From Portibacter lacus (lineage in GTDB: Bacteria > Bacteroidota > Bacteroidia > Chitinophagales > Saprospiraceae): DNA of 64,000 nt. The translations under genes and the position numbers were made by a program. The DNA lies in NCBI RefSeq assembly GCF_021533215.1, contig NZ_JAJNKA010000002.1, forward strand, positions 62,001-126,000, written 5' to 3'. The notes under the pieces are model-generated. The model was not told where the DNA came from. It made no database searches and worked only from the letters and a program-made list of their open reading frames with translations. Positions 56,601 to 62,458 of this stretch are shown here, in pieces; the stretch's first letter is position 1; every line of letters begins with the position of its first letter.

Positions 56601-57950
56601 ATCGTGGAGAGCTTTCATTCCTATGCCCGAAGCAAAGAAATTGCCATCCATTTCTATAGCGAAGAAGAAGTGATCATAATGGATTTTGATGGTGAAAAGA
56701 TTCAGCAAGTTATGAGCAATCTAATCACTAACGCTATAAAATTCACGCCTAAGCAAGGAAATATATACATAACTTCTAGTGTAATAAAGATTGACAATCC
56801 AAATGATCTTAAAGTAAAAAATCAAAATCTCCAGATCCAAGTACGAGATACTGGCGAAGGGATTACAGACGACGATATACCATTTGTCTTCGATCGTTTC
56901 TTTCAGGCGGATTACTCGACCAGCCGATCGGATGACGGCACTGGAATAGGATTAGCTTTGGTCAAAGAGTTGATGTATTTGATGGATGGAGATATCTCTG
57001 TAAAGAGTCGGATTGGCCAAGAGACGGTATTCACCTTAAATTTACCGATAAATCAACATGCAGGTATTCCGAGCCAAGCTAAATTAATCTTATCACAAGA
57101 TGCAGCACAAAAAATGGTGCCTGACATCAAACAGGTGTCTAGCAATTTGCCAGTTAGTGAGGAAGTCGTAGTGGGAAGACCAACCCTACTTCTAATAGAA
57201 GACAATCTGGATGTAGTTGCCTATGTTGCTATATGCTTGGATGGGATTTACAATCTAAAAATTGGAAATAATGGACAAGAGGGAATCGATATTGCCATCG
57301 AAAGTGTTCCTGATATTATCATCACTGACGTAATGATGCCAATAAAAGATGGATTTCAGGTTTGTAAAGAATTAAAAAACAATGTACTCACCAGCCACAT
57401 TCCTATCATCATGCTGACAGCCAAAGTGGATATGGAGAGCAAGATAGAAGGACTAGAAACAGGAGCGGATGCCTATCTTATGAAACCCTTTCAAAAAAAG
57501 GAACTGTTGGTTCGACTTAAGAATTTGCTGAAAATTAGAAAAAAGCTACAACTTCACTACCAGTCCTATATAAAGAATGACAATACAAGGGTTTTAAAAC
57601 TTGGAGTAAATGAAATCAAAGGAATTGAAAACGAGTTTATTGAAAATGTCAGAGACCTTATTCTAAATAATCTGGAGAACAATGACTTTGGAGTGGAGGA
57701 ACTTTGCAGAGGAATGGGAATGAGCAGGTCTCAATTGCATCGAAAACTTTCTGCTGTAGTGGGGCAATCCCCTAATAAGTTTATCAATTCGATCCGCCTG
57801 AATACAGCAGGTAGGCTACTAGAAAGTTCCGATGTAAATGTTTCAGATGTCGCCTATCAAGTGGGGTTTAGTGACCCAAGTTATTTCACTAGATCATTCA
57901 AGAAAGAATTCGGAATGACACCAATGGAATGGAAGCAAAAATTTAACTAA
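53616..57950 (+). CDS. Hybrid two-component system protein (HTCS)
   Basis: A 1444-residue single-chain sensor-regulator. Signal/anchor helix about 23-41, then a periplasmic Reg_prop double propeller (about 50-785, repeated D-S-L-G-F-M-W-F-G-T and Y-D-G-Y-K-like units). Next are a Y_Y_Y domain (about 790-866), a membrane helix (about 869-893), HisKA with N-I-T-H-E-F-R-T-P-L (His924) and HATPase_c (G-T-G-I-G-L-A-L-V). A receiver follows with I-I-T-D-V-M-M-P (phospho-acceptor Asp1238), and the C-terminus is an AraC-type HTH (about 1340-1440, V-A-Y-Q-V-G-F-S-D-P-S-Y-F-T-R-S-F-K-K). HTCS proteins sense glycan fragments and switch on nearby utilisation genes. Here no SusC/D pair adjoins; the divergent dioxygenase-like gene is the nearest target. 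Confidence 0.95.
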   Translation: MLKFIQCLFCRSKSIRLSLNPKFRVLIGFVFLIGFRTIVNGQVSSTLPQYDFEMLELPNGVEGNHVNAIAQDSLGFMWFGTKHGLLRYDGYKYKTFSNVKNDPTSIASNDVHNIHVSQDGHFLWLTMGQGKVGQFDLQTERFTHFQMTDKTGIPQRPIVIEMVPDHQDNLWMASNYGLYYFDTKKKEFTSYFHDPSDDHSLTYNVCRALLIDSKGVLWVGTGSYNDVGIDGASHKGIENGGLNRFRPETQDFVRYKNDPSEKNSLINDVVTEITEDRKGNFWIGTKGYGIQQFDRDRAIFVDMNQGRNQQSSIEVPYTNDSNERVISYIFEDKAGKLWFSLTFDGILSYDPNTKQNLSYLPDSDDPDSFLEPLTTRIYQSRDNTIWMCTSNSLARLYKLKLQQYRQVKLDHGHEIKVNNFTETSEGKIIFATEFAQNLFSLDPSTQAITALNEDNKWKQEVFKKGKKIYAPRFQKEDFRPLWKVRADDKNQIWFNIFQRNETFCLDINERKVKIYLPENDDPDLVFTDWVTEVFSDRDDDVWTTTKAGLIKKYDSKENQFSHWFFGHNEDDVNRSYYSILSQSTNGKLIMAYTPDVNGQLALQTFDPATEKFNKIPLIYEPGASALIYRLLSNIMEDADGYVWICLDSGLLKIDPKTGKTQIFEANYFGLNKINRIVLDDLNRIWIFSDRLVLFDLSDLSQVNFEMPKAKIGRRKFTKYFETGSFKDSKGNIYFGTPDGFASFNPAVLADTISQSYATEISDFELLFQKELGIEEVNAPRFTIDEEISLNHHQNNFTFRFSTLNYSKKGTIRYEYMLDGYDDHWRPAGNSPEATYIKVPSGHYSFKVRSSEDGISWGPIKTASLTIIPPFWASWWAYLLYLVLLIGLSYWFYTFQLEKKLRHSEANRLKELDAVKTKLYTNITHEFRTPLTVITGMASQMKEDPKQWFTQGISMIENNAARLLALVNQMLDLSKLESGKTSLTLKQGDIVNFLRYIVESFHSYARSKEIAIHFYSEEEVIIMDFDGEKIQQVMSNLITNAIKFTPKQGNIYITSSVIKIDNPNDLKVKNQNLQIQVRDTGEGITDDDIPFVFDRFFQADYSTSRSDDGTGIGLALVKELMYLMDGDISVKSRIGQETVFTLNLPINQHAGIPSQAKLILSQDAAQKMVPDIKQVSSNLPVSEEVVVGRPTLLLIEDNLDVVAYVAICLDGIYNLKIGNNGQEGIDIAIESVPDIIITDVMMPIKDGFQVCKELKNNVLTSHIPIIMLTAKVDMESKIEGLETGADAYLMKPFQKKELLVRLKNLLKIRKKLQLHYQSYIKNDNTRVLKLGVNEIKGIENEFIENVRDLILNNLENNDFGVEELCRGMGMSRSQLHRKLSAVVGQSPNKFINSIRLNTAGRLLESSDVNVSDVAYQVGFSDPSYFTRSFKKEFGMTPMEWKQKFN

Positions 57951-57997
57951 GATTCATTCAAAAGGCTAGTGACCTTTATGTTTAAGCTCTAGAATGT

Positions 57998-58057
57998 CTA
58001 CTTTCCAATACAAAACCGCATAAAGATCGAGCCCAACAAGTCGTCCGTATGGATTTC
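57998..58057 (-). repeat. Second copy of the mnmE 3' end (19 codons plus stop)
   Basis: Read on the minus strand, this encodes E-I-H-T-D-D-L-L-G-S-I-F-M-R-F-C-I-G-K followed by TAG. The intact mnmE ends with the same 19 residues except G for D and M for T. At nucleotide level 58005-58057 matches 59382-59434 at 49 of 53 bases. Homology stops abruptly on the upstream side, at the stop codon of the ATPase gene (58057-58059). Confidence 0.92.
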
Positions 58058-59178
58058 TATATTTGATTTACAAACTCCCTGAAGTTCTCATTCGTAATTA
58101 TATCAACCTTGGTTTCATATGTTTTCTCAAAGGATTTAGGTATTCTAACTTTTCGATTTGGGTTCCACTTTATTTCAAAACCAAGAACATTTTGACCATG
58201 AGTTTCTACATAATCTATCTCTTGCTGCTGCACAGTTCTCCAGAAATATCCTTTATTTAATGACTGGCTATAAACATTACTTTTCAATCGTTCTGCAATT
58301 AAAAAATTCTCCCACAAATTGCCTTTATCTTTTCGAAGAGCCATTTGACTTAAATCACCGATAACCATGTTTCTTACTCCAGTATCGTAGAAGTAAATTT
58401 TCTGGTTTGTTTTTATTTCATTCCTTAAGTTCCTGCTAAAACTTGGAAGTTTAAAAACTACATATGCTTGACAGAGCAAATCAATATAGTTAGAAACCGT
58501 TTTCTTATCTATTCCTAACAAGTTAGAGAGCACATTATAACTGACTTCATTTCCAATTTGAAATGCTAGAGCCCGTAATAATTTTTCTAAAACCTCAGGT
58601 TTACGAATACCTCCATAATTTAATATATCCTTGTAAAGGTAGCTATCTGTTAATTGCTTTAAGATCTCTTTTTCATCTCCTAAATTATTGATTACATCAG
58701 GGTACATTCCATATACAACACGCAATTCTAATTGCTGCTGAGCCTTGAGATAACCTACATTATTTTCGAACTCCGTCCATGAAATAGGGTATAGTTGATA
58801 CTCCCATTTTCTACCTGTCAGAGGTTCTTGAGTTTGGTTATTAAGCTCGAAAGCTGAAGAACCACTTACTAGTAATTGTACAGTTTTAAATTGATCAGCA
58901 ATGAGTTTCAAGGTAAGTCCAATGTTTTCAATCCGCTGCGCTTCATCAATAAATACTACCTTATAGTTTCCAATAATGCTTTTCAGCTGTTCTGTATTAG
59001 GATCCGTAAGAAGTTTTCTAACGGTAGGATCATCTCCATTTAGAAATAAATGTTCTTTATCTTTTAATAACTTATTGAAAAGAGTGGTTTTTCCTACTTG
59101 TCTAGGACCAATTAAAATAATGGCTTTTCCTTTTCCAAAACGATTATTAATTTGTTCTTCTAGTGTTCTTTTTATCAT
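58057..59178 (-). CDS. AAA ATPase with DUF4143 and nuclease-like C-terminus
   Basis: From ATG at 59178 the protein has 373 residues; an upstream ATG at 59232 would translate through two palindromes and is less likely. Walker A G-P-R-Q-V-G-K-T-T at 24-32, Walker B V-V-F-I-D-E-A-Q-R at about 74-82, and S-G-S-S-A-F-E-L sensor region place it in the AAA_14 group. P-L-T-G-R and Y-P-I-S-W-T-E-F precede a winged-helix/DUF4143 half. Near the C-terminus, E-I-D-Y-V-E followed by F-E-I-K-W resembles the E-x-D...E-x-K core of PD-(D/E)xK nucleases. This family is widespread and horizontally mobile in Bacteroidota and archaea, with no settled function. Its stop codon touches the mnmE-tail copy. Confidence 0.85.
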   Translation of the reverse strand: MIKRTLEEQINNRFGKGKAIILIGPRQVGKTTLFNKLLKDKEHLFLNGDDPTVRKLLTDPNTEQLKSIIGNYKVVFIDEAQRIENIGLTLKLIADQFKTVQLLVSGSSAFELNNQTQEPLTGRKWEYQLYPISWTEFENNVGYLKAQQQLELRVVYGMYPDVINNLGDEKEILKQLTDSYLYKDILNYGGIRKPEVLEKLLRALAFQIGNEVSYNVLSNLLGIDKKTVSNYIDLLCQAYVVFKLPSFSRNLRNEIKTNQKIYFYDTGVRNMVIGDLSQMALRKDKGNLWENFLIAERLKSNVYSQSLNKGYFWRTVQQQEIDYVETHGQNVLGFEIKWNPNRKVRIPKSFEKTYETKVDIITNENFREFVNQI

Positions 59179-59183
59179 ATTTA

Positions 59184-59229
59184 GGGATCGCAATCCCCAA
59201 ATATAATGATTTTCAGGGATCGTAATCCC
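59184..59229. promoter_or_regulatory. Twin palindromes before the ATPase gene
   Basis: GGGATCGCAATCCC (59184-59197) and GGGATCGTAATCCC (59216-59229) are 14-bp inverted repeats (GGGAT...ATCCC) set 32 bases apart, about three helical turns, and each is followed by CCAAAT. The nearer one ends 6 bases before the ATG at 59178. They could be operators for self-repression or hairpins in the mRNA leader. Confidence 0.6.
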
Positions 59230-59338
59230 CAAATGTTAATATTTTCTAGAAATAATCCTTAGATATTTTTGAATTTTGAGACTAAAAAAGCAGAAATTCG
59301 GCTGCCTTTTCGCTTGGTTTACTAGCGGTTCCTTCCCT

Positions 59339-59357
59339 AAAATGCCGCTGGCATTTT
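59339..59357 (-). terminator. Hairpin after mnmE
   Basis: AAAATGCC (59339-59346) pairs perfectly with GGCATTTT (59350-59357) around a 3-base loop. It lies 17 bases past the mnmE stop. The T-run on the minus strand is short (TTTTA), so it could also act in the other direction or be part of the GC-rich stretch 59298-59374. Confidence 0.5.
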
Positions 59358-59374
59358 TCCTGCGGAACGTTCGT

Positions 59375-60775
59375 TCATTTCCCAATACAAAACCTCGTAA
59401 AGATCGAGTCCAACAAGTCGTCCGTATGGATCTCTCCTGTTATCAATCCCAACTGATGCAACGCCTGACGAATATCCATTGCCACAAAGTCACCCGTGAT
59501 CCCACTACGCAATCCATTCAATACCGCATCCAAACTCTCGAACGCCTTATTCAATGCATCAAAGTGTCGACTATTCGTAACAATCGTCTGATCCATCGAT
59601 GCTGGATTATCCACAACGGCTAAGTAAAGCATCTCTTTTAGTGCCTCTATATTCATTTTATTCAAGGCAGAAACTGGAAGCAAATTATCCTTAGAAATCA
59701 TACCCTCTTTGTAATAATCCTCCGGCTGGGTATATGGATTCAGATCCATTTTATTCGCGACAAAGATCCGCGTTGCATTAGCTGTTAATACCTTACTCGC
59801 ATTTAAAAACCGTTCAACATCCGCCCATAAGGCTTCTGGCTTCGTCGAAATCACATCAAACATATACACCACTACAGTCGATGAACCTATTTTCTCTAAA
59901 GTACGCTCCACTCCAAACTTCTCAATAGAATCTTGGGCTTCACGAATGCCTGCCGTATCGATCAAGCGGAATTGAATCCCATTAATATTTAGTCGCTCTT
60001 CGATGGTGTCCCGAGTCGTTCCAGCAATGTCACTAACTATTGCCCGATTCTCGTTCAACAACGAGTTCAGTAAAGTTGACTTGCCTGCATTCGGTCTTCC
60101 TGCAATGACCGTTGCTACTCCATTTTTGATCACGTTCCCTAAGTGAAAAGAATCCAATAATTCCTTGATCACGCCTTTGATCTTTTCCACTAAAGCTTCT
60201 AATTTCCCACGATCCGCAAATTCCACATCTTCCTCACCGAAATCCAATTCCAGTTCTATCAGCGCCGCAAAATCAATCAACTCCTGTCGTAGTTCTTTGA
60301 TCTGATCTGAGAAACCTCCTCTCATCTGACGTATGGCCAGATCATGACTCGCTTCATTTTCTGATGCAATTAAATCCGCCACTGCTTCAGCCTGACTTAG
60401 ATCCAATTGACCATTCAAAAAAGCACGCATCGTGAACTCTCCCCTATTCGCCATCCTCGCTCCGCCGCGTAAGCAAATCTGTATGACTTGCTCTAATATA
60501 TAGGGAGATCCATGACAACTTAATTCGATAACATCCTCCCGAGTATAGGACTTAGGAGCTCTAAAAATAGTAGCTACACATTCATCGATTACCTTCCCCT
60601 GTTCATCTTCTATCTTCCCATAATGCACCGTGTTCGCTTCAACTTTCGTTAGATTCCTTCCCTTGAAAAAAACATCCGTTATAGCAATCGCTTTCGGCCC
60701 AGACAATCTAATTACACCGATCGCTCCTTGGCCTGGTGGTGTAGAAAGTGCTACTATCGTGTCATTTACGAGCAT
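59375..60775 (-). CDS. mnmE: tRNA uridine-5-carboxymethylaminomethyl modification GTPase MnmE
   Basis: A 466-residue protein of normal length. N-terminal folate-binding domain (I-A-L-S-T-P-P-G-Q-G-A-I-G-V-I-R), helical domain, and inserted G domain with G1 G-R-P-N-A-G-K-S-T at 226-234, T-T-R-D-T at 253-257, D-T-A-G at 273-276 and N-K-M-D at about 345. It ends with the catalytic F-C-I-G-K at 462-466, whose Cys is essential in the family. With MnmG it modifies the wobble uridine of several tRNAs. Its last 53 bases (59382-59434) are repeated at 58005-58057 beyond the ATPase gene. Confidence 0.97.
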   Translation of the reverse strand: MLVNDTIVALSTPPGQGAIGVIRLSGPKAIAITDVFFKGRNLTKVEANTVHYGKIEDEQGKVIDECVATIFRAPKSYTREDVIELSCHGSPYILEQVIQICLRGGARMANRGEFTMRAFLNGQLDLSQAEAVADLIASENEASHDLAIRQMRGGFSDQIKELRQELIDFAALIELELDFGEEDVEFADRGKLEALVEKIKGVIKELLDSFHLGNVIKNGVATVIAGRPNAGKSTLLNSLLNENRAIVSDIAGTTRDTIEERLNINGIQFRLIDTAGIREAQDSIEKFGVERTLEKIGSSTVVVYMFDVISTKPEALWADVERFLNASKVLTANATRIFVANKMDLNPYTQPEDYYKEGMISKDNLLPVSALNKMNIEALKEMLYLAVVDNPASMDQTIVTNSRHFDALNKAFESLDAVLNGLRSGITGDFVAMDIRQALHQLGLITGEIHTDDLLDSIFTRFCIGK

Positions 60776-60898
60776 ATTATATTTTGATACAAATTAAAAC
60801 AATTTCCACACCAACAATGAAAATTCACAGAATGTTTGATAATTCAAGTAGATAATAAATAATATTATTTAATCTCTAATTATACCATTGAGCCTTTC

Positions 60899-62458
60899 CT
60901 AATTTGAACTAAAAGGATTGTCATTATAATGTTTTTCCATTAAATCGAGCAAATCAATATTTTTTGCTATACAAATCGCAAAATATCTCATAAAAACATC
61001 ACTCTTTGCTAAGAAGTAAGTCAGTAAATCACTAGCATTCTCATAATCATCATTATAATATTCTACTTCTTCAGCTTCTTCAAACCCAAGTAAGCAAGCG
61101 AAAAAATGAGGCGACCTTTCAGCTGCCCTGATGATCGTTTTCTTTGTCTTTGAACTTTTACCATACATAAAGTAACTGCACAAAATATCGCCTACATCAA
61201 AAACAAGACTCCCTTCATCTTGAAATTTCGCTCGAAGCTTAATAAACTTCTTCCAATTCCTATCCATTAGATAATTAAAAGCTAAAAAATATCGAATACC
61301 TAAATTATCTGTAGGATTCATGCTTAGCAATTCCCAATGAATTTCCTCTGCTTCCTCTTCATATTCATACCATTTCAACTCATTAGCATAATGAAATTTT
61401 GCTAACATAAACGGTCGAGTATTTGGGTCATACCACCACGGTCCATGATCTTTATAAATACCTGAGCTCAATTGCTCTTCTCCTAATTCAATAGCTGCCT
61501 CAAGCAAAGCCAACCGTTCTTCACCATCGATTGTCCAGCCTGCCTTTGCTACGTAAACATCCAGATAATCACTATGGTTTTTCATAAATTCTTCGAGGGC
61601 TTCCAGCGACTCTTCTTTTTCCAATATATAGATATCCATAAGCTCATGAAGGGGAGTATGAAAAGCTGTAATATCGTCTATTTTTTTACCTACCTTGCTA
61701 TTCATGTACTCAATTAGCTCCGCTTCAGATTTAAAATTCTTATTCTGAAGTCCTATATCAAATTGATGTGTAATTGTATTACGATAATGAAGACTAGGGG
61801 TAAAGATATTGGTCCAATCATAGATACACCTTATCTTAAAACCTTTCAGTTTGTCCAGATTTGTTAAATCAATAAATTCTTCATCCTCATCTTCAATGCA
61901 TGAAAATGTAATATAAATAATACCATCATGCTCTTCTATCTTTAGCAATTCTGTTCCTAAATCAGTTGCTGCATTTACAACCACAATTTCTTTTTGAATC
62001 TTTCGTAAAAGTCCAGGTTTTGCATTCACTTTTACCTCAAAAATCCATGGATCAATATCATCAAAACCCATTAACTCAGAAAAATATGAATTGTTATGAG
62101 CTAAATTGAACATGAAATCAAATTCACGTTTACTAAGTTCCATCTTAATGGACCGTACTTTTTTGTCAAGCTTATTTTCATCAATTTTATAAAAATCTCT
62201 AATCATGTCTTTAGTAATAATTATAAAAGATGCTTCATCAAGATATTTCAATTCAGAAACATAACAGAAAATGTAAGCCGCAGCAAGTAAGTCCACGTCG
62301 TCATCAGAAAGCTTACTCGGATCATCACCTTCTATAAGGTCAGTTGCATGCATTACGGGATCGAACAATATGAAAACATCTTTCTCATTTAGAAAGTCTG
62401 CAACACGTTGATCGAAATTATCCCGAGGAAAAATTGATAATATTACATTATGATCCAT
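60899..62458 (-). CDS. Hypothetical protein with ST7/TPR-like C-terminal region
   Basis: A 519-residue cytoplasmic protein without signal or membrane helices, rich in Asp/Glu. I do not recognise the N-terminal 250 residues. Residues about 330-470 (T-R-P-F-M-L-A-K-F-H-Y-A-N-E-L, then L-L-S-M-N-P-T-D-N-L-G-I-R-Y-F-L-A, and S-P-H-F-F-A-C-L-L-G) resemble the ST7-like TPR tail found in many bacterial proteins of unknown role, where R-P-Y-M-R-A and N-P-x-D-N-Q-G-x-R-Y are usual. Start at 62458 is the only upstream ATG in a good position. Function unknown. Confidence 0.75.
   Translation of the reverse strand: MDHNVILSIFPRDNFDQRVADFLNEKDVFILFDPVMHATDLIEGDDPSKLSDDDVDLLAAAYIFCYVSELKYLDEASFIIITKDMIRDFYKIDENKLDKKVRSIKMELSKREFDFMFNLAHNNSYFSELMGFDDIDPWIFEVKVNAKPGLLRKIQKEIVVVNAATDLGTELLKIEEHDGIIYITFSCIEDEDEEFIDLTNLDKLKGFKIRCIYDWTNIFTPSLHYRNTITHQFDIGLQNKNFKSEAELIEYMNSKVGKKIDDITAFHTPLHELMDIYILEKEESLEALEEFMKNHSDYLDVYVAKAGWTIDGEERLALLEAAIELGEEQLSSGIYKDHGPWWYDPNTRPFMLAKFHYANELKWYEYEEEAEEIHWELLSMNPTDNLGIRYFLAFNYLMDRNWKKFIKLRAKFQDEGSLVFDVGDILCSYFMYGKSSKTKKTIIRAAERSPHFFACLLGFEEAEEVEYYNDDYENASDLLTYFLAKSDVFMRYFAICIAKNIDLLDLMEKHYNDNPFSSN

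Follow-up and report, generated by a model that had tools for sequence, protein, structure and literature searches.

Insertion of a gene together with a long duplication of its target has been described for restriction-modification genes by comparison of Helicobacter pylori strains (Nobusato et al. 2000, Gene 259:99, as related in PMC1643837 and PMC3031569). Islands of the SGI1 type insert at the 3' end of trmE/mnmE (PMC8409611), and cis-mobilizable elements (CIMEs) are bounded on both sides by copies of a target-gene end and carry no integration genes (PMC5704250). PDC-S01, which joins an ATPase to a PD-(D/E)-X-K domain, is reported to rank fourth in frequency among the defences of prokaryotes, validation being pending for most PDC-type candidates (PMC12988326). 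No account of DUF4143 genes inserted with duplication of a gene end was found in the literature searched, in which few subscription-journal papers were covered.

The locus presented here belongs to Portibacter lacus, a member of the Saprospiraceae with a genome of 6.3 Mb in 43 contigs; among named relatives, the closest by MnmE is Portibacter marinus (82%). It lies within a stretch of 64,000 nucleotides that was analysed as a whole and is referred to below as the window. As in the H. pylori cases, so far as the sources cited describe them, the cargo is flanked by a long direct target duplication (57 nt, 91%), such duplications being long and variable, the cargo is of the defence-gene kind, and no mobility gene is present at the site; the window differs in that its cargo is a lone non-restriction candidate from a member of Bacteroidota, and in that the duplicated block ends at a stop codon, so that the target gene survives. 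With SGI1-type islands it shares both the target gene and the end used, but it has neither an integrase nor an integrase-type far end, carries a single gene, and shows a duplicated block that reaches well past the 18-nt core encoding FCIGK and a stop. It also resembles a CIME in that the insert stands between copies of the target-gene end without integration genes, although what precedes its far copy is cargo together with coding sequence of mnmE, and not the element-side sequence of integrase-type pairs. Regarding PDC-S01 as modelled in PADLOC-DB 2.0, the window ATPase is a strong match with AAA and DUF4143 domains, no sequence difference being seen, and it shares the status of a candidate.

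The mnmE locus of the window

The features concerned are the following.

57998..58000, minus strand: TAG stop codon of the distal repeat copy
58002..58058, minus strand: direct repeat, distal copy, a partial mnmE 3' end with frame and FCIGK kept
58057..59232, minus strand: AAA_14 + DUF4143 ATPase, PADLOC PDC-S01 (ORF, domain and PADLOC searches)
59174..59237, no strand: 32-nt unit, present twice and containing a GGGAT..ATCCC palindrome, where the ATPase gene starts (repeat family D3)
59327..59378, no strand: 52-bp stretch directly behind mnmE, 4 bp of it inside mnmE, recurring at 92% elsewhere in the genome
59375..60775, minus strand: mnmE, intact, 466 aa (ORF; TrmE_N, MnmE_helical and MMR_HSR1 domains)
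59379..59435, minus strand: direct repeat, proximal copy, the mnmE 3' end (repeat search)

A first-pass annotation of the window had reported that the last 53 bp of mnmE recur in the same orientation with four mismatches. This core repeat is indeed present (58005-58057 versus 59382-59434), and it extends to 57 nt with five mismatches in identical orientation (58002-58058 versus 59379-59435). Translation of both ends also bears out that the repeat copy retains FCIGK and a stop, the distal copy encoding EIHTDDLLGSIFMRFCIGK and the true mnmE end EIHTDDLLDSIFTRFCIGK, each followed by a stop codon that differs between the two. When the 53-mer was slid along both strands of the window, at least 30 matches were reached only at itself (53) and at the second copy (49), and no third close copy was found genome-wide, the next match having an E value of 0.6. 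Among the matches listed, the 18-nt FCIGK-stop pattern has a third occurrence in the same genome, on the opposite strand and not beside mnmE.

Of the 57 positions, 5 are unlike between the copies, and because of this 9% divergence the borders of the repeat are blurred. Three third-position states (in GAC, TCG and ATC) are common to both copies and absent from P. marinus, while they also occur in some more distant relatives; they suggest a duplication or exchange within the window lineage that is not recent. The divergence also bears on a different origin, namely that the mnmE end and the ATPase gene of a related strain were imported together, through a homologous crossover paired with an illegitimate one or through integration of a circle, the old end of the recipient being left behind. 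A far copy that was formerly the working end of a close relative would fit the observation that three of the five differences are synonymous, as well as the different stop codons, and a mosaic far copy is found at locus L158, where identity is 79% over 370 bp but reaches 141/147 in the last part. Nonetheless, we regard such an import as quite unlikely, considering the evidence from a second gene end given below.

Between the copies, the sole large ORF is that of the ATPase (391 aa), as the first-pass annotation had stated, the remaining ORFs being of 65-115 aa and on the opposite strand, with the longest extending into mnmE. The ATPase stop codon (58057-58059) not only adjoins but overlaps the distal repeat edge. 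The protein contains PF13173 (E 6.5e-29) and PF13635 (E 2.5e-42) and matches the PADLOC PDC-S01 model with E 2e-166, which makes it a candidate phage-defence gene; its nuclease-like motif was recognised by eye or taken from the earlier annotation, not by search. The ATPase gene has a G+C content of 32.7%, whereas that of mnmE is 43.2% and that of the window 37.6%. Single-sequence structure prediction was uninformative (mean pLDDT 35.5), no solved structure was close by sequence (one weak GTPase match), and the viral collection yielded one weak relative. Neither transposase nor integrase is encoded at the site, and a search for remnants of mnmE-type integrases in 57001-61500 was negative (best match E 2.9), in agreement with the earlier remark that a tyrosine integrase is lacking.

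The 32-nt palindromic units at the ATPase gene start may act as an operator. Palindromes with exact arms of at least 7 were seen near the start of 33/70 DUF4143 genes (that of L209 being misplaced) versus 43/300 control starts; the window palindrome at 59174-59237 is less exact and falls outside those 33.

Comparison with relatives

Homologues of the ATPase (E<=1e-60) occur in at least 154 of 398 Saprospiraceae genomes, with a patchy spread. Among the matches listed, none was found in the congeners G001 and G002, in which the surroundings of mnmE (14.0 kb and 15.5 kb, respectively; L182, L183) contain a single FCIGK-stop pattern. No second mnmE end was detected by blast in the 8.0 and 10.0 kb downstream of the gene in these congeners (L056, L042), in a survey of 110 loci plus the window, with some contigs included twice, in which L030, L043, L059 and L072 offered no usable downstream DNA and L038, L052 and L065 no mnmE C-terminus. 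Thus, of the empty site that the first-pass annotation suggested looking for in close relatives, a single mnmE end and the lack of a close ATPase homologue are seen in both congeners, at the level of absence, not base by base, because the flanking genes are unshared among the relatives fetched: genes flanking the window mnmE are conserved on both sides in none of them, the DNA behind either window copy has no match in them, and the sensor gene neighbouring the window mnmE has no counterpart adjoining mnmE among the fetched loci.

G001 has, among the matches listed, an extra exact FCIGK-stop match at C47:117419, on another contig and not beside mnmE.

Pairs of mnmE ends in Saprospiraceae

The FCIGK-stop pattern was scanned in the 398 Saprospiraceae genomes, with matches re-listed for 25 plus 39 of them, and same-strand pairs on the same contig were taken from the matches listed. 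The comparison comprised 22 pairs from 23 loci, L300 being dropped as having one copy only; L158, whose far copy lacks the exact pattern, and L153 and L171, whose first copy is not mnmE, stand outside it. In 17 pairs other than the window, the 39 nt upstream of FCIGK in the far copy match mnmE at 3-14 positions, and the far copy has a TGTACC motif in front of it in 11 of these 17 versus 0 of the other 5. Eight of the low-match pairs enclose a tyrosine integrase, lying behind mnmE (L170, L174, L175, L176, L179, L098, L187 and L190), with a small HTH gene in 6/8 and TGTACC before the far copy likewise in 6/8; five have TGTACC at the far copy without an integrase (L155, L168, L173, L188 and L189), and four have neither. 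At L058, the integrase/HTH pair gave a Xer-type recombinase score below the NCBI cut-offs and an excisionase-type score above the cut-off. Judging from the make-up of these pairs, tyrosine-integrase islands use the 3' end of mnmE as an attachment site in Saprospiraceae as well as in Pontibacter arcticus (L098).

As for the cargo of the integrase-less pairs, to which L177, L186, L188 and L189 also belong, classes were assigned in four: AbiEii in L173, AbiD in L168, HEC-01 with Fic in L155 and a type I methylase in L156, with L184 having no cargo gene. L155, L168 and L173 are candidates for mobilisation in trans.

These data bear directly on the possibility that the window holds a decayed or trans-mobilised integrative element of the CIME kind, its two copies being attL and attR of an mnmE-specific tyrosine integrase that was lost or acts from elsewhere. 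The use of mnmE ends as attachment sites, the five TGTACC-bearing pairs devoid of an integrase beside the eight possessing one, and the presence of defence-type genes in all three of the former that were tested (L155, L168 and L173) are in line with such an origin. On the contrary, far copies of the integrase type are preceded by non-mnmE sequence, whereas that of the window matches mnmE at 36 of the 39 upstream positions and has no TGTACC motif, with neither an integrase nor a remnant of one at the site; furthermore, its own genome encodes only distant relatives of the mnmE-type integrase, the best at 31% identity. We therefore consider this origin unlikely.

High upstream matching is shared with the window by L178 (37/39), which holds one ORF6N gene, and by L159 (38/39), with 8.7 kb; L057 (24/39, one Fic gene) and L157 (16/39, no gene) are likewise set apart from the 17, and the copies of L158 (141/147 nt) enclose a gene pair that scores as PD-Lambda-2. 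At L178, integrase C-terminal remnants lie behind both mnmE ends, around the ORF6N gene, and because of them this locus is probably an island scar. Some single-gene cases would accordingly derive from islands, as the element origin has it, and the group resembling the window is mixed.

FCIGK-stop pairs away from a full mnmE were seen in L153 (G023) and L171 (G266), with a TGTACC arm before both copies, which suggests arrays of elements; G023 has at least four TGTACC-preceded FCIGK-stop copies on three contigs.

Other genes with duplicated ends

The search for other DUF4143 genes standing between copies of gene ends, put forward in the first-pass annotation, led to L260 in genome G402. Here the 3'-terminal 144 bp of a gene for a GH63/MGH1-like glycoside hydrolase, including the stop, are present twice, with a DUF4143 gene in between. 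Two congeners have the empty site, since in G410 and G431 a single hydrolase end is followed directly by the DinB-like neighbour found in G402. In G362 and G333 the single hydrolase end is followed by a MazF/MazE-like pair and then by the same DinB-like neighbour (the DinB-like and MazF/MazE-like names being assigned by eye), so that the site accepts different genes of such sort. An ATPase at the hydrolase site is absent from all 7 congener loci, with little downstream DNA available in G429, and so is a second hydrolase end. The MazF/MazE-like pair is seen in L277 and L278, at the intergenic site that in G402 holds the DUF4143 gene.

Over their final 119 bp, the two G402 copies are identical at 118 positions, compared with 110 for the nearest sister, G362; the hydrolase-end copy was therefore made in the G402 lineage. 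Such a duplication in place speaks against the joint import from a related strain considered above, yet 5 mismatches fall within the 25 nt at the start of the 144-nt block. The hydrolase locus also bears on an old tandem duplication of the mnmE end that would be unrelated to the ATPase. Pairs of ends with no ORF of at least 60 aa between them do exist (L157 and L184), but the congeners of G402 have neither the second end nor the ATPase (0/7), and in the window the ATPase stop runs into the repeat border, making this explanation very improbable.

A further DUF4143 gene, in L265 (G374), is flanked by two 61-bp copies (90%) of a segment close to the end of a gene for an MFS transporter, the repeat ending 24 nt short of the transporter stop codon. 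Duplicated 3' ends were also scanned over 2759 ORFs in 2.2 Mb, mostly of mnmE- and DUF4143-centred loci, which returned 11 rows. The window, L158, L178, L185 (the contig place of L057) and L260 were kept. The rows of L155 and L187 were rejected as tandem paralogues according to their translations, that of L244 since its ORF terminates in a short repeated peptide and its far copy lacks a stop, and those of L050 (two rows) and L128 as judged tandem repeats.

Repeats around DUF4143 and Fic genes

Direct repeats of at least 28 bp and 80% identity within 700 bp flank 12/62 DUF4143 loci versus 7/601 control ORFs (p 5e-9). The controls divide into 1/45 neighbouring ORFs (p 0.007 versus DUF4143) and 6/556 ORFs at mnmE loci, one of the seven control matches being the Fic gene of L057. 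A looser, earlier count with 1500-bp flanks had given 14/65 DUF4143 loci versus 6/182 control ORFs. The DUF4143 set consists of the 62 of 69 loci with 700 bp on both sides, and the Fic set of 23 of 30 loci, both being best-scoring matches and not random draws. L213, dropped from the DUF4143 count, has a 64-bp repeat abutting the ATPase stop. Duplication of a gene end is seen in two of the 12 repeat-flanked loci (L260 and L265), with others intergenic and some palindromic. Because the controls are mostly genes of conserved neighbourhoods, unmatched in accessory status and intergenic length, part of the DUF4143 excess may reflect accessory genes entering repeat-rich intergenic DNA.

A self-mobile ATPase was entertained as long as the excess of repeats seemed specific to DUF4143, until the rate around Fic genes proved similar (4/23; p 1.0 versus DUF4143). 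The effect is thus not special to the DUF4143 ATPase, which probably does not move itself.

Discussion

The window presents a repeat of the mnmE end enclosing a single cargo gene that is absent from two congeners, without integrase architecture, and a kindred event with empty relatives is seen at a hydrolase gene. We read this, with a probability of roughly 0.6, as the insertion of a candidate defence gene in the course of which the end of the adjacent gene was duplicated, and attribute the joining to host repair or recombination. Horizontal transfer would bring in the ATPase DNA, host repair or recombination would join it across staggered positions, and this joining step would be independent of the cargo protein. 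A bolder form, in which the ATPase-nuclease itself cuts and so promotes its own insertion, loses weight given that Fic genes are flanked by repeats at a similar rate.

The first-pass annotation had proposed an mnmE-targeting element of the SGI1 type, and this is not supported, considering that (i) mnmE ends made by integrases differ from those of the window, (ii) duplication of the same kind is found at genes other than mnmE, and (iii) Fic genes share the excess of repeats. It had also left a choice between the scar of a larger island and an ATPase gene travelling as a unit; from that choice, insertion with a duplicated end is supported, while neither targeting of mnmE by the ATPase nor its travel by its own means is shown.

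More tentatively, and with rather more doubt than belief, lone defence modules of Bacteroidota such as PDC-S01, SoFic-type Fic, PD-Lambda-2-like pairs and ORF6N may share one cargo-independent insertion route in which the 3' end of an adjacent gene is duplicated, mnmE being a hot spot that integrase islands use as well.

A DUF4143 gene between duplicated gene ends, together with the empty sites of the sister case, offers a concrete and testable footprint of movement without a transposase or integrase at the site. In Saprospiraceae, integrase islands and lone defence genes thus come together at the 3' end of mnmE.
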